Assembly (NCBI RefSeq): GCF_004358345.1
Contig: NZ_CP037952.1
Span: 3,844,001-3,908,000, forward strand
Length of the DNA stretch: 64,000 nucleotides
DNA from: Parashewanella spongiae
Lineage (GTDB): Bacteria; Pseudomonadota; Gammaproteobacteria; Enterobacterales; Shewanellaceae
Reading direction: 5' to 3'
Position numbers and translations under genes: made by a program. This document shows, one piece after another, positions 6,127 to 55,575 of the stretch. The notes beneath the pieces are model-generated. The model worked only from the letters and a program-made list of their open reading frames with translations, searched no databases and had not been told where the DNA came from. Position 1 is the first letter of the stretch. Each line of letters begins with the position of its first letter.

Positions 6127-6735
6127 CTAACTGAATAACATCCTAAAACGTGCACCGTTGTCTGGTTGAACATAAGTCAAATCGCCGCCATGTTGCACCA
6201 TTATATGGCGGGATAAACTTAAACCAATACCAGAGCCTTGTGGTTTAGTAGTAAAGAAAGGCACAAAAATCATCTCATGCACATGTTCAGCGATGCCTTC
6301 ACCGTTATCAATAATATCGAGGCTTACTTGAGCACTTTCATTTTGATGTAGGCTAATCGTTATTTGCTTATTTTTGAGTTCACTTACCGCTTCTGTAGCG
6401 CTTTTTAAAAGGTTTATCAGTACCTGCTCTAACTGCGCAGCATCAGCCATTAATGAGTAATCACTGGGTAACTTCAGTTCCAAATCAACTTGCAATTGCT
6501 GCCATTGTGTTTCAAACAGCTTTAAGGTTCTGTTCACTAAATCTTTAAGTGAAGTGATTTGCAAATTCGGCGCTGGTAATTGGCTCAACGAGCGGAATCG
6601 ACCAATAAACTCATCCAAATGTGCAGTTCGCTTAGCAATGGTATCTAGTGCTAATTGTAAATCTTGCTTATCTTCCTCATCGTCAAAACTGAGCTGCTCT
6701 GGTATTAACGTGGTCGCAGTTTGTGATAATGAAGT
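6127..6735 (-). pseudogene. Sensor histidine kinase, C-terminal remnant
   Basis: C-terminal part of a two-component sensor kinase. The frame is open from the IS junction (TSLSQTATTLIPEQ) through a dimerisation-like helix (RTAHLDEFIGRFR) and an HATPase_c domain with the N box (LEQVLINLLKSATEA), G1 (DNGEGI) and G2 (GSGIGLSLSRHIM). It would bind ATP at the inner face of the membrane and phosphorylate a partner regulator. The N-terminal sensor part and the phospho-histidine region are missing; the frame is cut by the ISAzo13-type element at 6739. The best internal start is Met at 6618. Its likely partner is the receiver fragment at 8032-8306. Confidence 0.8.
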
Positions 6736-6738
6736 AAG

Positions 6739-8031
6739 GGATGCTGCGACTTAGGTTATACCGACGTATAATCCAAACAGAGTAATTTACGGTTGCAGCC
6801 AAATGTCTACTTCAATTTACCTTTCTAGTGAGTCCAAAAGGATAATTAAACTTGCATCCAGTAAACTTCATGGGATGGAGAAAAGAGTTTTTATGGCCGA
6901 AGTATCCAAAACCTTCTGCTGTGGGAGTCCACGCTTAACTGAAACAGAATTTGGCTGGTGTCGAAAGGCTGTTGCGCTTGGGCTTCATGAACAAGAAACG
7001 GGCTTCGAGTGTTTCGGACACTATGACGGAAAACCTCGAAGTGAAGTGAGTCAGCCTCAATTAGAAATAGATATTAGAGCGTTAGTAGATCCTGAATCGC
7101 AAGCCGACCCGAAGTTTAAAAATACGTTTGTGTATACCCGAATTACAGCGAAAGGCGTCAGAAAAAAGTTAATTGAAGAAAAAGGCTGGCTACCTGAAGA
7201 ATTACCTAAAGAAAGAACCATTAACGACATATTAAATCGACTGGGATACAGACTTCGACGAGACCAAAAAACTAAACCCCAAAAAAAATTCCTCAAACAG
7301 ACGCTATCTTTGAAAACGTAAACAAAATCAATAAAGAAACAACCGGTAATAAAAAAGTCATCCGTATTAGTATAGACTGTAAAGCGACAGTTAATGTTGG
7401 TGAGTATTCCCGTTACGGTAAATCTCGTAGTGCTGATGCTGTTCAAGCGTTGGATCATGATATGGAAATAAAAAAGAAAATGATCCCGTTCGGAATTCTT
7501 AACCTCGACAATGATCAACTTCATTTTTTTTATGGCAACTCAAATAAAACAAGTGACTTCATTTGTGACGCACTTGAATGGTGGTGGGATTCAGTTAAAA
7601 GTGAAAATCTAGAAGTGGAAGAACTCATTATTTTTTCAGATAATGGTCCTGAAAATAGTGGCTGTCGTACTCAATACCTGTTTAGATTAGTAGCGTTTAG
7701 TGAACAATCGAAACTCAAGATTCGAAACGTCTACTACCCGCCATACCACAGTAAGTACAACCCGATAGAACGAGTCTGGTCATCGTTAGAGAGGCATTGG
7801 AATGGCACATTACTGAGTACAGCCAAAACGGTAATAGAATGGACAAAAACAATGACATGGAAAGCGATGAGCCCAGTAGTCAATTTAATTGATAAAATTT
7901 ACTCAAAAGGAGTCAAGCTCAATAACAAAGAAAAAGAAGAGCTGGAAAGTAAAATAGTCAGAAATAGTGAATTACCAAAGTGGGATCTTACAATCACTCC
8001 AATTGCGGTAGATTTTTAAATGCTAGATCCC
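6739..8031 (+). mobile_element. ISAzo13-type insertion sequence
   Basis: 1293-bp element with short inverted ends GGGAT (left GGGATGCTGCGACTTAGG; right, read inward, GGGATCTAGCATTTAAAA) and the 3-bp flank TAA on both sides (6736-6738, 8032-8034). It carries one transposase gene in two frames. Two 165-bp MITEs elsewhere in the window (30348 and 52294) have similar GGGAY termini and 3-bp T-N-A duplications and may be moved by a related enzyme. Confidence 0.8.
6803..8019 (+). CDS. ISAzo13-type transposase, two frames joined by a -1 shift at A8
   Basis: The first frame (6803-7321) encodes the N-terminal helix-turn-helix region and the LVDPESQADPKFKNTFVYT block typical of ISAzo13 transposases. 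The second frame (open to 8019) encodes KKVIRISIDCKATVNVGEY (first catalytic Asp), ELIIFSDNGPENSG (second Asp) and YPPYHSKYNPIERVWSSLE (catalytic Glu region). The change occurs at a run of eight A (7281-7288) and needs a -1 shift, after which the protein is uninterrupted at about 405 aa. This can be a programmed shift or transcriptional slippage, or a simple mutation; a homopolymer sequencing error is also possible. Confidence 0.75.
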
Positions 8032-8306
8032 TAATGCCTCGTTTTGCCACGGTTTGGCAATAAAATCAGCGGCTCCAGCTTTGATGGCTTGGACTGCTAA
8101 GTTCATATCGGCATAAGCCGTCATCATAATCACGGTAGTGCTTGGTTTCAGCGTTAAGATCTGCTTTAGCCAATGAAACCCCTCTTTGCCACTGATAGCA
8201 TCTTGAGTGAAGTTCATATCCAGCAGCACTACATCAATATCAAACTGGTTTAAGTAATGGCTGATTTGTTGCGGATCAGTTGTGGTTTTAACTTGTTGAT
8301 AGTGCT
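8032..8306 (-). pseudogene. Response regulator receiver domain, remnant
   Basis: Part of a CheY-like receiver domain. It shows the phospho-acceptor in FDIDVVLLDMNFT, the switch region VIMMTAYADM and the conserved lysine in AADFIAKPWQNE. The N-terminal acidic pair is replaced by sequence from the IS on the right (junction near 8307), and the C-terminal effector part is lost at the ISAzo13 insertion. With the kinase tail at 6127 this is what is left of an NtrC/AtoC-like regulator followed by its kinase on the minus strand. Rejoining across the IS does not restore one frame, so about 2 kb of host DNA was lost as well. Confidence 0.75.
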
Positions 8307-10008
8307 GGAACCCATCAGATACGGGTAACAAATAAATGAGAAAATCTGAGGAGAAAAACGTTATTTATTGAGATAATAAGCCGACTAAAACTATTCTCAA
8401 AATAAAATGCCGATACTCGACCGAACACCGCTTAACTCCTCAGACAAATTCGATCTTCTCTTAAAAACTATCGCTTGCCAAGTGCATGGTGCAGTTTCTT
8501 CTCTTTCTGATGAATTTAATGTTTCTCGTAAAGCCGTTTACTCCGCTAAATATGCGGCTCAATCGGCACTAAAGTGCCTTGTTACTACCAACGACGAATC
8601 TGATGTCATTACATCTGTAAATGTTGACGTACCACATCTTCGCCGTTCTATTGTGGCTTTATCAATCACAGCACCTAACTCTATTCGAGCAATTGAAGAA
8701 CAAATCCCACTCATTTATCCAGGCTGTAAAGTCAGTTACGGTTACATTCAAGGCGTTATCGTTGAAGCTCAAGAGCAGGCTGAGTTATTTAACGAAAAAG
8801 TGTCGCTATCAGCCATAAAGAGTGTGGCCATCGATGAGATGTTCAGCCAAGGTGACCCCGTACTTGCTGGGATAGATCTCGAAAGTGGTTATTTATTTTC
8901 ACTCTCTCACGAACAAAAGCGTGACGGTGAAACTTGGGCACGAGTTTTAGGTGAAGCTAAATCACAAGGATTATCACCTCAGCACGTCGTTAAAGATGGA
9001 GCAAAAGGAATAGCGAAAGGCGTTAGCATGAGCTTTGAACATGCAGAGCAACGTGATGATGCTTTCCATGCGTTGTATATCGTAGGTAAGGCGCTGAGAA
9101 AGGTTGAACGTCGGGCGTACTACTACATTGATAAAGAGGCTAGTTTGGAAAAAAGATTGCGTAAAGATGTATTCGATACAGAGAAAAAGCAGCAGGCAAT
9201 GGTTGATTTATTAGGCGTGCAAGCGAAATGTGAGCAAGCGATTGAGCAATATGAAAGTGGAACGAAAAGCAGAAATCATCTCCACCAAGCTTTGACCAGT
9301 ATTTCCATGAAAACGGGTAGCCTCATGACGAAAAAACAGGCTGAAGCCTTGCTAACGAAGGCTGTTGATGGCTTAAAAAATACTGAGCATAAAGATGGCA
9401 TCACCGCTGCTAGATACATAAAAAATCGTTTGAAAGGACTGACATTAGCAACTCAAGCACTTCACGAAAAGTTACTGAAACTTGGCGAACTTTATCCTCA
9501 AGAATGCGTTGAAGTGGCTTGTCGCTTCTCTGAACGAAAGCGCCAATTACGAAAAGCTAAACCTTGGAAAATAGCGCGGTATCAGAAAGAATTAGTTGGC
9601 AGTTATCAGTGGTTGCGACTCCGTTTAGGCAAGAGTGCCAGCGAACTTATGCTGCAAGTGGAAGCGTTGCATCAAACTCGCCACAGAGCATCAAGTGCCA
9701 TTGAAGGGTTTAATGCCACTCTACGGTCTTACCTTTATGTCCGTAAAGGAGTCAATCAAGGTTTCCTCGAGTTATTTAAAGCTTGGTACAACCTTCGCTC
9801 AAGACGCTGGGGGAAACATAAAGGAACTTCATCGTATCAGAATATCACAGGGAAAAAAGTTGATGACTGGCTAACAATGCTGAATTTTCCACCTTCGGAT
9901 TTACACCACTAAGCACTCACAAACTTTGTGTGATTTACGGTAGCGGTTCAACTGAGGTTGAGCTGGCGATCTCTCTTTGATTTGTTACCTTTAAGACCTA
10001 TGTTTTGA
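8307..10008 (+). mobile_element. Unclassified (ISNCY-like) insertion sequence, copy 1
   Basis: About 1.7-kb element with one transposase gene. Its left end begins near GGAACCCATCAGATACGGG, shared with the second copy at 23406. Subterminal inverted repeats are GGTAACAAATAAATGAG on the left (about 8325) and GGTAACAAATCAAAGAG read inward from the right (about 9990). The exact right end and the target duplication could not be fixed; the right end is estimated by symmetry. The insertion truncates tnsB on the right and the receiver gene on the left. Confidence 0.7.
8407..9912 (+). CDS. Transposase of unclassified IS (ISNCY-like), copy 1
   Basis: 501-aa protein. It has an N-terminal helix-turn-helix-like segment (residues 25-50, SLSDEFNVSRKAVYSAK), a DDE-like core beginning KSVAIDEMFSQGDPVLAGID (about 140-160), a second acidic site near HVVKDGAKGIAKG (about 195), a long helical middle and a C-terminal block SSAIEGFNATLRSYLYV followed by RRWGKHKGTSSYQ. 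These features fit a transposase whose IS family I do not place with certainty. The reading frame is complete in this copy; the second copy (23506) is identical up to residue 493 and then truncated. Confidence 0.8.
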   Translation: MPILDRTPLNSSDKFDLLLKTIACQVHGAVSSLSDEFNVSRKAVYSAKYAAQSALKCLVTTNDESDVITSVNVDVPHLRRSIVALSITAPNSIRAIEEQIPLIYPGCKVSYGYIQGVIVEAQEQAELFNEKVSLSAIKSVAIDEMFSQGDPVLAGIDLESGYLFSLSHEQKRDGETWARVLGEAKSQGLSPQHVVKDGAKGIAKGVSMSFEHAEQRDDAFHALYIVGKALRKVERRAYYYIDKEASLEKRLRKDVFDTEKKQQAMVDLLGVQAKCEQAIEQYESGTKSRNHLHQALTSISMKTGSLMTKKQAEALLTKAVDGLKNTEHKDGITAARYIKNRLKGLTLATQALHEKLLKLGELYPQECVEVACRFSERKRQLRKAKPWKIARYQKELVGSYQWLRLRLGKSASELMLQVEALHQTRHRASSAIEGFNATLRSYLYVRKGVNQGFLELFKAWYNLRSRRWGKHKGTSSYQNITGKKVDDWLTMLNFPPSDLHH

Positions 10009-10835
10009 TCAGTCCTAACTAATGCCTTAGCAACTGACACATACGATGGAGCTCTATAGCTAATATGAAATTCTACGACACAATTACTAAATACGTCTAT
10101 GAGGAGCGTAAGGTATGGCCTTCCAAGCGGTATATTGAGTTCGTCATCTACGAGAATTAAATCCAGTGGTGTGTGATCTATTTCCACCCTTTCTAGAATT
10201 CGAGTTGGCCGTATATGTGAAAGGCATTTCTCAAACATTCTATCCGCTAAATATTTACCATAGCGAGCAACAGCCTCGGGATATGGTGGTAACTTATTGA
10301 TTCGTCGATTAAAGCTTTTATATGAGATTTTTGGTATTTTGCCATCAACGATTTTGTTGTTTTCAATCGTAATTAAGTCACAATAATGCTCGTAGGCTTT
10401 CATTATCGATGGGCGTATTGCTTTGTAATACCTTTCTAGTGCAACTTTAAAGAACTCTTCATCGCCAGATATTCTTTTAGCTGTATTGCCTTTTTTCTGA
10501 TGAAAATCAACTAATGAAGTTATTTCACCTCCGCTGTCTTGGAATTTTTTCCTCCACCTAACTACTGTTCTCCAACTAGGAATCTTCTTTGTTTGCTCTG
10601 AATACAACTCAGCTAAGATAGGCTCTAAACTTTTTTTAGTCCAACCTGATGTTATCTTTTGTTGTATTAATGAAATAATCCTAAACCGCTCAATAGCTTG
10701 TTCCTTCAACTCGTTAGAATAAGTATCTAAATCTCGTTTTATTAATACCGACTCTTCTAATGGAATATATTGTTTCGGAGTAGTTGCCTGCTCTCTTTGA
10801 TAAATGTTTTCGAACTCATCTTTGAAGCTGCTCAT
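9948..10835 (-). pseudogene. tnsB: Tn7-like transposase TnsB, N-terminal part
   Basis: N-terminal 275 or so residues of a TnsB/TniA-type DDE transposase. It shows helix-turn-helix domains (residues 40-120, including WTKKSLEPILAELYSEQ and PSWRTVVRWRKKF), then the start of the integrase core RVEIDHTPLDLILVDD with the first catalytic Asp and RPYLTLLIDVFSNCVVEFH. The normal protein is about 550-700 aa. The frame runs into IS sequence near 10009, so the last 20 or so residues are not TnsB. It starts with an ATGA overlap to the stop of tnsA, the usual tnsAB arrangement. tnsC and tniQ are not found in the window. Confidence 0.88.
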
Positions 10836-11157
10836 GACTCACACCAAAAAGTAGGATTACCATCAAGTTTCTCATTGATGAGATCTACCTTAACTTTCCC
10901 TGTTGCTACGAGTTGCAATACATTAGCTCTTAAGTTTCCAATATCCTCTTCAAATTGAGTTAAAAGACAGAATAATGATAACCTCCCAACCTTGTGTATG
11001 ATGTTTAATATTTTTTCTTGAAGGTCATTTTCAAGTGTAAAACTTGAATAGCGGTGAAGTATTTTTAAATTTTCAAGTAATGGTTGTCTTCGGACTTGTT
11101 CATCTGTTACGAGAATTAAAGAAATACCTAATTTTTCTCCTGATTCCTTTCTGGCCT

Positions 11158-12394
11158 CAGGGCGGGATCGTGCTTTAGATCTTGAAAATAATTAAATCAA
11201 TTTTGAACTTTCCTGAGTAACGATGATCAGATCGACAAATGAATACTGATTTGAGTCTGATTATGGACGTAATGAAAGAGATTGAACAAGTTGAAGATTA
11301 TCGTGTTGAAGCTAATAAAGAGTATGATTTAGCTGATATTATTTTTCTTACAATTGCCGCAGTGCTTTGTGGTGCTACAGGCTGGAAAGCCATCAACATT
11401 TTCGGTGAAGCTCAATTAGATTGGTTAAGACAATATCGGCCATTTAGTAATGGCATCCCGACACAACACTCAATCGGACGGATAATTAGAGGTGTTAAAG
11501 CCGAAAGTATGATGTCTTGCTTTATTAACTTTTCCAATACATTACGGGAGCGAGATGGTAAAGAGCATATCAGTTTTGATGGTAAAGTTGCTTGTGGCTC
11601 TAAACACGGTGATGACATAGCGGCGCTTCAACTAATGACGGCAATGGTTGTAGATAATGGGCTGATAATACGTCAACAAGAAACGTCGACCAAAACGAAT
11701 GAAATCCCAGTAATGCAATCCATGCTAAAACACATGGATATTGAAAATGCAGTGATTACCGCTGACGCCATGCACTGCCAGAAAGAAACTGCAACCTTAA
11801 TACGTGAAGGAAAAGGTGATTACGTTCTTCAAGTGAAAAAGAATCAAGGTAAATTACTTGCTGAAATAGAAGCTTATTTTCATAAGTGCTATCGAGACAC
11901 ACCAGAGCTTTTAAAGCAGAATCACTTTACAGAGTTAGACGGTGAGCACGGACGAATAAATGAAAGACATTATCGCCTTTTGCCAATTACAAATTGGTTT
12001 GACGAAACGGCTAAATTTGTAGGCAGTCAGGCCGTTGTTGAAGTCACTCGGATGCGAGAAATGAAGAATAAATCAAGCCATGAAACGTCTTATTACATAA
12101 CCTCGTTAGCCAGTGACGTGGAAGGCATCGCTGGATATATACGGAAGCACTGGGCAATTGAAAATAGTCAGCATTGGGTTCTCGATGTCACTTTTAAAGA
12201 GGATGACTGTAAAATTTATGCTGATGATGGTGCAAAAAATTTAGCAACTATTAGGCGAAAGGTTTTGAACTTAATTAAAAATCACTCTTCAAAAGACAGT
12301 GTGGCTGGCAAGATACAGCGAGCCTGCTGGGATGCAAAATTTAGGGCTGAGATTTTATTTGGAGAATAATTCATCAAAGCATAATCCCGCCCTG
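11158..12394 (+). mobile_element. ISAs1-family element inside tnsA
   Basis: 1237-bp element with inverted ends CAGGGCGGGATCGTGCTTT (left) and CAGGGCGGGATTATGCTTT (right, read inward), flanked by the exact 10-bp duplication TTTCTGGCCT (11148-11157 and 12395-12404). It carries one intact transposase gene. It looks recent because both ends, the duplication and the gene are intact. Confidence 0.95.
11239..12369 (+). CDS. ISAs1-family transposase
   Basis: 376-aa ISAs1 (H-repeat-like) transposase, full length for the family. The N-terminal part shows DYRVEANKEYDLADIIFLT and LCGATGWKAI; the catalytic core shows HISFDGKVACGSK (first Asp), IENAVITADAMHCQKE (second Asp), DYVLQVKKNQGKL, and the C-terminal signature KHWAIENSQHWVLDVTFKED with the catalytic Glu. 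The start at 11239 follows the left inverted repeat by 81 bp. No frameshift is seen, so it is probably functional. Confidence 0.95.
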   Translation: MNTDLSLIMDVMKEIEQVEDYRVEANKEYDLADIIFLTIAAVLCGATGWKAINIFGEAQLDWLRQYRPFSNGIPTQHSIGRIIRGVKAESMMSCFINFSNTLRERDGKEHISFDGKVACGSKHGDDIAALQLMTAMVVDNGLIIRQQETSTKTNEIPVMQSMLKHMDIENAVITADAMHCQKETATLIREGKGDYVLQVKKNQGKLLAEIEAYFHKCYRDTPELLKQNHFTELDGEHGRINERHYRLLPITNWFDETAKFVGSQAVVEVTRMREMKNKSSHETSYYITSLASDVEGIAGYIRKHWAIENSQHWVLDVTFKEDDCKIYADDGAKNLATIRRKVLNLIKNHSSKDSVAGKIQRACWDAKFRAEILFGE

Positions 12395-12796
12395 TTTCTG
12401 GCCTTAAATCGCACTTTGAACTCAGACTTTAGCGCTTGCCTGATTGCTTTATATTCAATATATTGTTTAGTCTGATCTTTAAAAGTGATCACTGCGTCTG
12501 GGGTATACGGAAGCTCCTTTCCTTCAAAATGATACTTGTAACCTTTCGGCTGAGATTCAAAACTAACAACGTCCTCGTCAAATTCATGATGAAAACAAGC
12601 GTCAAACTCAATAGTACCTTCACACATAACTATTTTATTTGTTTTTATACTCACAAATTTAAGAACGCTTTTATTGGGAGAAGCTTTGCGAAGATTTCTG
12701 ATGTACATCTCAAAACCATTAAATTAAGCAAAGTAATCTTAAGAGGATAATCACACTTTTAATTTTGAGATAATAAATACTTTTTTACGATAAGAT

Positions 12797-12908
12797 ATTT
12801 GACAACTTATGGGTTAGATTTGTCATCTTATGATGTGATTTATAACAGGTTATGGGTTAAATTTGTCACTATATGGGTAAAATTTGTCATCTTATGGGTA
12901 CAATGACA
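12797..12908. other. Tn7-like transposon end with repeated TnsB-site-like motifs
   Basis: Read on the minus strand from 12908 the sequence starts TGTCATTGT and then repeats an ACCCATAA-type motif followed by TGACAAAT: sites at about 12883-12899, 12862-12878, 12840-12857 (degenerate), 12817-12832 and 12797-12814. Tn7-like transposons begin 5'-TGT and carry several ~20-bp TnsB sites in each end. The spacing is dense (21 bp or so), as in right ends next to tnsA. The five bases beyond (12909-12913, AATAA) would be the target duplication; the other end is not seen. The 6S RNA gene ends about 30 bp further on. Confidence 0.78.
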
Positions 12909-12943
12909 AATAAAACTCAATATTTACCGTAAGTTATTGATTG

Positions 12944-13134
12944 GATTGCTCCCCAAGATACCGTTATCAGCTTAGCCCTTGAACCGTAGGTTCAAGGCGG
13001 GTAAACGATAACTTCCTAAGGCTTCTCGATACGAGCCGAGCTTGCACAATGTCAGCCAAACATTCACCCTTAAGTCAAAATTATCGGCACAGGGACATTA
13101 CTGATTAGAACATGTATCCCAGGGAGCAAATTTG
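12944..13134 (-). ncRNA. ssrS: 6S RNA
   Basis: The minus strand shows a 6S RNA: the closing stem pairs GCTCCCTGGGATAC (5' arm) with GTATCTTGGGGAGC (3' arm), and the conserved internal parts GCTCGGCTCGTATCGAGAAG and CCTTGAACCTACGGTTCAAG match enterobacterial 6S RNA. The gene lies directly downstream of zapA, as in E. coli. 6S RNA binds sigma-70 RNA polymerase in stationary phase. Ends are approximate (about 190 nt). In E. coli the next gene is ygfA; here a Tn7-like transposon end takes that place. Confidence 0.92.
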
Positions 13135-13171: not shown

Positions 13172-13474
13172 TTACTTCGAGCTACGTACTACTAACGCTT
13201 CTTCTAACGTCGATTGAAGCAAATTGATCCGCTCATCCATTTGTGAGACATAATCCTGATTTCGACGTTGCTCAGTATACAATTCATGACCAATATTTAG
13301 TGCGGCCATAATCACGATTTCTTCGCGGCATAAACTGTTTGAGCGAGTTTTTAAGTCACTTAACTGTTTTTCAAGATTTTCAGCAATTTTAATCAGTGCT
13401 TCTTCTTGTTCTGCCGGACATGCAATTGAGTAGGTCCGACCCAGTAACGTTATATCAATGGCCCTGTTACTCAT
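13172..13474 (-). CDS. zapA: Cell division protein ZapA
   Basis: 100-aa ZapA, a cytoplasmic protein that bundles FtsZ filaments at the division ring. The N-terminal domain (RAIDITLLGRTYSIACP, about residues 3-20) and the long C-terminal coiled coil (about 55-95, MAALNIGHELYTEQRRNQ onward) are typical, and the length is normal. It is followed on the same strand by 6S RNA, the conserved zapA-ssrS arrangement of gammaproteobacteria. Confidence 0.93.
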   Translation of the reverse strand: MSNRAIDITLLGRTYSIACPAEQEEALIKIAENLEKQLSDLKTRSNSLCREEIVIMAALNIGHELYTEQRRNQDYVSQMDERINLLQSTLEEALVVRSSK

Positions 13475-49329: not shown

Positions 49330-49380
49330 CTTGGGTACAGTGACCAATGACTGTACCCAGTTTATGGGTACAGTGAGAAA
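49330..49380. repeat. Cluster of GGTACAGTGA repeats
   Basis: TGGGTACAGTGACC, GACTGTACCCAG and ATGGGTACAGTGAG occur within 45 bp, forming a direct pair and an inverted copy. The TATGGGTACA part recalls the Tn7-like end at 12891-12902, but spacing and flanks differ. It lies between IS66 copy 2 and a MITE; no gene is near. Confidence 0.45.
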
Positions 49381-55350: not shown

Positions 55351-55575
55351 GTGCGACGTGATGTCGTATGGAGCGCTGTTCACCGCTAGAAGAGTGAATC
55401 TGCCGTATCACCGGTTGAACCTAGGACTCTGAATGAAGTAGCGAGTCTGACAATGTAATGAAGTCGATTCGACGGGAAAATAATCCTGAGAGGACATTCC
55501 TCCTGATAACCACATGAATCGGGTAAATGCTAGGTAGTCAGTATGATCAACATAAGTGAATCCGAAAGATTTCTT
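55351..55575 (+). mobile_element. 5' fragment of a second group II intron
   Basis: Begins GTGCGACGTGATGTCG, a match to the GUGYG start of group II introns, followed by GGAGCGCTGTTCACCGCTAG and AGAAGAGTGAATCTGCCG-type domain I sequence and ATCCTGAGAGGACATTCC. It is cut at about 55575 by an ISKra4 fragment. No reverse-transcriptase part is present. It differs from the intron at 1-5490. Confidence 0.6.

Follow-up and report, generated by a model that had tools for sequence, protein, structure and literature searches.

The array of short repeats at positions 12797–12908 of the window (the whole stretch of 64,000 nucleotides that was analysed) belongs, as judged from its sequence, to a Tn7-like transposon of the I-F3 type that is now dead, and forms its right end. 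The explanation that best covers the observations, and that we regard as quite probable, is that this element was a sister of the PseCAST/ANA-3 group, that it was probably brought by a guide RNA to the 6S RNA gene (ssrS), and that it decayed afterwards. From the inside outwards, the right end consists of the following parts:

12797–12814, minus strand: TnsB-site-like repeat 5, ACCCATAAGTTGTCAAAT (17.4 bits)
12818–12835, minus strand: TnsB-site-like repeat 4, CATCATAAGATGACAAAT, 5' half degenerate (11.6 bits; identical in G003, a related genome)
12840–12857, minus strand: TnsB-site-like repeat 3, ACCCATAACCTGTTATAA, 3' half degenerate (15.1 bits; near-identical in G003)
12861–12878, minus strand: TnsB-site-like repeat 2, ACCCATATAGTGACAAAT (21.8 bits)
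12882–12899, minus strand: TnsB-site-like repeat 1, ACCCATAAGATGACAAAT (19.1 bits)
12901–12908, minus strand: putative 8-bp transposon terminus and outer edge of the right end, beginning with TGT and reading TGTCATTG on the minus strand; in relatives, TGTCGCTG occupies the corresponding position next to site 1, and the homology with G003 stops here
12909–12913, no strand: AATAA, presumably the 5-bp target duplication in its outer copy, placed by the Tn7-family rule

The five 18-bp repeats lie on the same strand (minus, 12797–12899) and their starts, counted from the outer end, are 21, 21, 22 and 21 bp apart, which agrees with the spacing of about 21 bp in a compact end given in the preliminary description. 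Four clear motifs and a single weak one (12840–12857) had been counted there; the weakness of site 3 stands, but site 4 (12818–12835) is also imperfect, so that two sites are degenerate. The motif had been written with one free base between its halves, a form that matches nowhere in the window with as many as three mismatches allowed; the true gap is of two bases, ACCCATAA-NN-TGACAAAT, and in the whole 5.47-Mb genome the motif with a gap of one to three bases has a single exact occurrence. A matrix was made from the right ends of 17 relatives (41 distinct sites, selected by a consensus chosen after the window array was known). With it the five-site array scores 85.1; the next best place in the window reaches 6.0, and the best of 60 Markov-resampled windows 22.9. 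It is presumed that TnsB bound these five sites.

On the inner side of the array lie the remains of tnsA and tnsB (DDE), which make up a single operon directed away from the right end and are both broken by insertion sequences:

12355–12708, minus strand: 5' part of tnsA, covering residues 1 to about 104 and followed by a tail that comes from the IS (Pfam PF08722; PseTnsAB, 1.5e-37)
11158–12394, plus strand: ISAs1-family insertion sequence inside tnsA (NF033564), flanked by the 10-bp duplication TTTCTGGCCT (11148–11157 and 12395–12404)
10832–11157, minus strand: 3' part of tnsA, in the frame of the joined flanks
10014–10835, minus strand: 5' part of tnsB, residues 1–274, with the stretch VEIDHTPLD kept and the rest of the catalytic core missing
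8407–9912, plus strand: ISL3-like transposase gene of the insertion sequence that ends tnsB

The start of tnsA (12708) is 88 bp inside the last site, and that of tnsB is at 10835. When the flanks of the insertion sequence in tnsA were joined by script, an open frame of 209 residues was obtained, which is the length of the TnsA of ANA-3; the IS-derived tail of the tnsB frame is present at 12 further places in the genome. No tniQ-cas8/5-cas7-cas6-CRISPR module survives in the ssrS element, an absence that may reflect decay and that leaves the ancestry undecided by that feature. With the C-terminal part of TnsB and the TnsC of ANA-3 as queries, the genome gave matches only in another element, located at ffs, to which the single TniQ of the genome also belongs; the ssrS element is dead, since the rest of TnsB, TnsC and TniQ are found only in that other element. 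Elsewhere in the window, HATPase and response-regulator genes flank a transposase gene split into two pieces (6127–8331), and there is a match to Group II intron D1-D4-7 at 55399–55530.

The affiliation of the element is given by its transposase. Residues 1–274 of TnsB score 345 bits against the TnsAB fusion of PseCAST, 110 against the TnsB of Tn6677 and 31 against that of Tn7, and TnsA matches, among transposases, only PseTnsAB. In a tree of 94 TnsB rows, where the Tn6677 row is a long branch, the window TnsB is sister (100/85) to a clade of 23 rows, with which it forms a clade of 24; the 23 comprise PseCAST, ANA-3 and further rows from Shewanella, Pseudoalteromonas, Psychromonas and Colwellia. 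Five Vibrio rows branch next (with ffs upstream of tnsA in three of them), and a wider set of 66 rows (99/98) includes the window and CRISPR-bearing kin homed at ffs. The N-terminal part of TnsB is 53–60% identical to that of the 14 family relatives aligned; the named relatives came from an alignment scan (127 found, 80 kept), a single-protein scan having returned none. PseCAST is a guide-RNA element. ANA-3 is described as a tested I-F3 CAST in PMC12452197. Taken together, the bit scores, the TnsA match and the tree agree with the link to I-F3, rather than to classical Tn7, that had been drawn from the letters alone, and neither TnsA nor TnsB groups with classical Tn7. That link had relied on a likeness to ACCATAA/TGATA sites; it holds for the I-F3 type, but the nearest branch is PseCAST/ANA-3 and not Tn6677, which has those sites. 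By these comparisons the element is a sister lineage of the PseCAST/ANA-3 group within the I-F3 type.

With PseCAST and the rsmJ/cobO-homed I-F3 CASTs of Shewanella (e.g., ANA-3), the element shares the TnsA/TnsB sequence, the site motif, the 21-bp register, the orientation towards the target gene and the terminus TGTCRYTG; it differs from them in its target (ssrS instead of rsmJ or cobO), in the slots that are occupied and in being broken, without tnsC, tniQ or cas. The right ends of the relatives have sites spaced by 21 bp and a terminus, TGTCGCTG, near-identical to that of the window. In their 21-bp register slots 1–3 are filled in 16 of 16 relatives and slot 7 also in 15 of them (relative L147 being left out, and the start rule having begun at slot 2 instead of 1 for five of the 16), whereas in the window slots 1–5 are filled and slots 6–7 are empty; the right end of G003 has the slot design of the window, with a weak slot 5. 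Tn6677 (VchCAST, I-F3a) belongs to the same TnsB family, but its TnsB is far more distant (110 vs. 345 bits) and its motif has the half TGATA where the window has TGACA. Its ends are built of 20-bp sites, with three sites in the right end against five in the window, according to PMC13370975. Classical Tn7 has the same tnsA-tnsB order and a right end of four partly overlapping sites (PMC13370975); it differs in its TnsB, against which that of the window gives only about 30 bits, and in its target, which is glmS (PMC11406308), the window element being at ssrS.

The array faces the 3' end of ssrS, a gene that was found by Rfam and that had been lacking in the earlier account of the array:

12946–13128, minus strand: 6S RNA gene (ssrS), 3' end facing the transposon (Rfam RF00013, 107.7 bits)
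13172–13474, minus strand: zapA (ZapA Pfam)

The terminus is 37 bp past the 3' end of ssrS. The guide-RNA sites of I-F3 elements are mostly guaC, yciA, ffs and rsmJ, with parE for elements that have TnsD (PMC11406308). In Shewanella, rsmJ and cobO serve as sites together with a small number of others (PMC12452197). The element at ssrS is outside the guaC/yciA/ffs/rsmJ homing sites. Literature searches gave, among the papers listed, no report of ssrS or 6S RNA as a target of Tn7-like or CRISPR-associated transposons. The close copy of this end at ssrS in G003 points to a landing site that is new for the I-F3 group in the literature checked. None of the 80 named relatives is at 6S, and a strict order-wide pattern (right-end-type terminus after a 6S-like end) was found in one of 394 genomes, the own one (the related genomes G001–G004 are not among the 394); from these two counts the site is rare. 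Assigned by short patterns, the target genes of 54 relatives were ffs in 25, rsmJ in 14 and cobO in one, with one contig edge and 13 undecided.

The terminus and first half-site, TGTCAYTGTACCCATAA (17 bp), have four exact matches in 152 family genomes, one in the own genome (G000), two in G002 and one in G003, and all of them are transposon-type ends at the 3' end of 6S RNA; a wide occurrence outside transposon ends, which the preliminary description had named as adverse to its reading, is thus not seen. Other candidates were rejected: TGTCACTGTACCCA occurs in four other family genomes in unrelated contexts, and a one-mismatch copy of the 17-bp terminus at 49362–49378 of the window starts with TCT and has no array around it. 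That copy, TCTCACTGTACCCATAA, is one of three copies of (C/G)ACTGTACCCA, in both orientations, at 49332–49378. Viral scans returned 22 terminus matches, all without arrays, and one TnsB relative, and in a plasmid tblastn no close full-length match was present among the 40 listed of 3871 matches.

Insertion of Tn7-family elements creates a 5-bp target duplication. The right end with its TGT boundary is present; a matching left boundary and the partner copy of AATAA were not found. A genome search with the 17-bp terminus at up to three mismatches gave 55 matches, against 50 for the reversed control, and no left end came from a scan by consensus and matrix of 140 kb on the left side of the window and of 80 kb around ygfA and ahead of it. 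In other bacteria ygfA is expected beyond ssrS; in the own genome it is 2.5 Mb away, and therefore it gave no boundary for the left end.

Having located the target gene, a target for the lost guide can be predicted in it:

12957–12990, minus strand: predicted target of the lost guide, CC at 12990–12989 followed by 32 nt at 12988–12957, 48 bp before the terminus

The predicted spacer-match sequence, in the 3' arm of 6S, is TACGGTTCAAGGGCTAAGCTGATAACGGTATC. The CC-N32 stretch ends 48 bp (G000), 51 bp (G003) and 52 bp (G002) before the terminus, and integration by VchCAST takes place 46–52 bp from the target (PMC10201428); these distances fit guide-RNA homing and are no proof of it, as the guide is gone, and CC is so common that the PAM test is weak. 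With two of the four 6S sequences as queries, no 6S-matching spacer stood above background in the fetched loci. Of 54 close relatives, only six showed Cas proteins within the flanks fetched; the tniQ-cas genes of ANA-3 start about 9 kb from tnsA, so that the cas modules of many relatives may be beyond those flanks. We infer RNA-guided homing of the element to ssrS.

The own genome carries a second, complete-looking I-F3 CAST at ffs (contig C1, about 1,986,400–1,995,700; L012:9398–18700), with a natural TnsA-TnsB fusion (822 aa), TnsC, TniQ, Cas8/5, Cas7, Cas6 and a short CRISPR array; it also has an atypical repeat, after which comes a spacer with a likeness, judged by eye, to ffs. The stretch of ffs that matches the spacer has CC in front and ends 51 bp before the TGT of the element. 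Both elements are of I-F3 type and next to a small RNA gene; they differ in that TnsAB is fused at ffs, in the TnsB region (35% identical) and in the end sequence, and the ffs element is not the source of the ssrS remnant. Two further loci, L095 (G004) and L096 (G002), are operons with a TnsB relative 37–38% identical to that of the window; their gene sizes are like those of tnsA-tnsB-tnsC-tniQ-cas8-cas7-cas6, and an adjoining gene of about 630 aa could be parE.

Three genomes carry copies at ssrS. In G003 a stretch of 93 bp, which includes the degenerate sites 3 and 4, matches the window array at 90.3% identity, and tnsA was not found at it. An island of about 9.3 kb, which carries recombinase-like genes and lies between copies of the 7-bp repeat ATAAAAT, interrupts the array within site 1. 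That island (L079:2307–11609) has two integrase-like genes and a 212-aa gene, a trio that presumably recalls the gamma-mobile-trio. In G002 there are two termini in tandem and the middle sites are lost, and in G001 and G004 no terminus was found at the 3' end of 6S. G002 and G003 are near relatives (98% nucleotide identity in zapA). Between G000 and G003, the four-fold sites of three neighbouring genes agree at 0.24, 0.35 and 0.37, and those of zapA at 0.64 (25 sites); homology beyond the terminus is poor and synonymous sites are near saturation. An array that is 90% identical in spite of this favours separate insertions over neutral vertical inheritance, and suggests that closely related elements entered at ssrS at least once in the G000 lineage and at least once in that of G002 and G003.

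The notion of a single ancient insertion, inherited by the three genomes with an array kept for a use of the host (e.g., at the 6S terminator or as a target-immunity mark), would account for the same site in three species of one genus, for degenerate sites 3 and 4 common to the window and G003, and for the array that G003 kept where tnsA was not found. We consider it improbable, given that the array agrees at 90% where four-fold sites reach only 24–37% in three genes and 64% in zapA, that the array has collapsed in G002 and been split by an island in G003, and so is not protected, and that repeated insertion of near-identical elements is the simpler account. Far more remote still is an array unrelated to transposition, be it a set of regulatory operators or repeats of random origin: chance alone can produce short AT-rich repeats, and similar copies of CACTGTACCCA without an array are present at 49332–49378, but the score against shuffled windows, the position before tnsA, the terminus and the same end design in relatives with longer transposase genes speak against it, and the TnsB tree and the matrix score rule it out as far as sequence can.

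The mode of homing leaves more room for an alternative, in which the same transposase lineage was directed to ssrS by a DNA-binding protein of the TniQ/TnsD type instead of a guide RNA. Some I-F3 elements do have a parE-specific TnsD, ssrS is outside the usual guide-RNA sites listed in the same source (PMC11406308), and the targeting genes of the ssrS element are lost; on the other hand, the nearest characterised kin, PseCAST and ANA-3 (for the latter, PMC12452197), are guide-RNA elements, and in three genomes the insertion distance and the CC PAM fit RNA guidance, so that we hold this alternative to be possible but rather unlikely. In the preferred account, that of a guide-RNA-homed I-F3 element, TnsB would have bound the five sites spaced by 21 bp, with cleavage by TnsA and TnsB at the TGT terminus. 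Probably guided by a CRISPR RNA directed at the 3' arm of 6S, the element would have entered just past the conserved 3' end of ssrS, oriented as is usual for I-F3 elements, with its right end beside the 3' end of the target gene and tnsA reading away. Later losses would have removed TnsC, TniQ, any Cas genes and the left end, and insertion sequences would have broken tnsA and tnsB.

The chances seem to us even that these copies represent an undescribed I-F3 lineage, with the 6S 3' arm as its home by means of an ssrS guide RNA, a compact right end of five slots and at least two entries in the genus, all the copies seen being dead. The natural homing sites of I-F3 transposons are few, and these elements serve as genome-engineering tools. 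The contiguous five-site right end is a naturally occurring arrangement on which to test the site slots required by the transposase, and the ssrS site predicts the target of the missing guide. With 6S, a second widespread small RNA gene would join that of SRP RNA as a home, and this suggests a rule by which these transposons home to the 3' ends of conserved small RNA genes.
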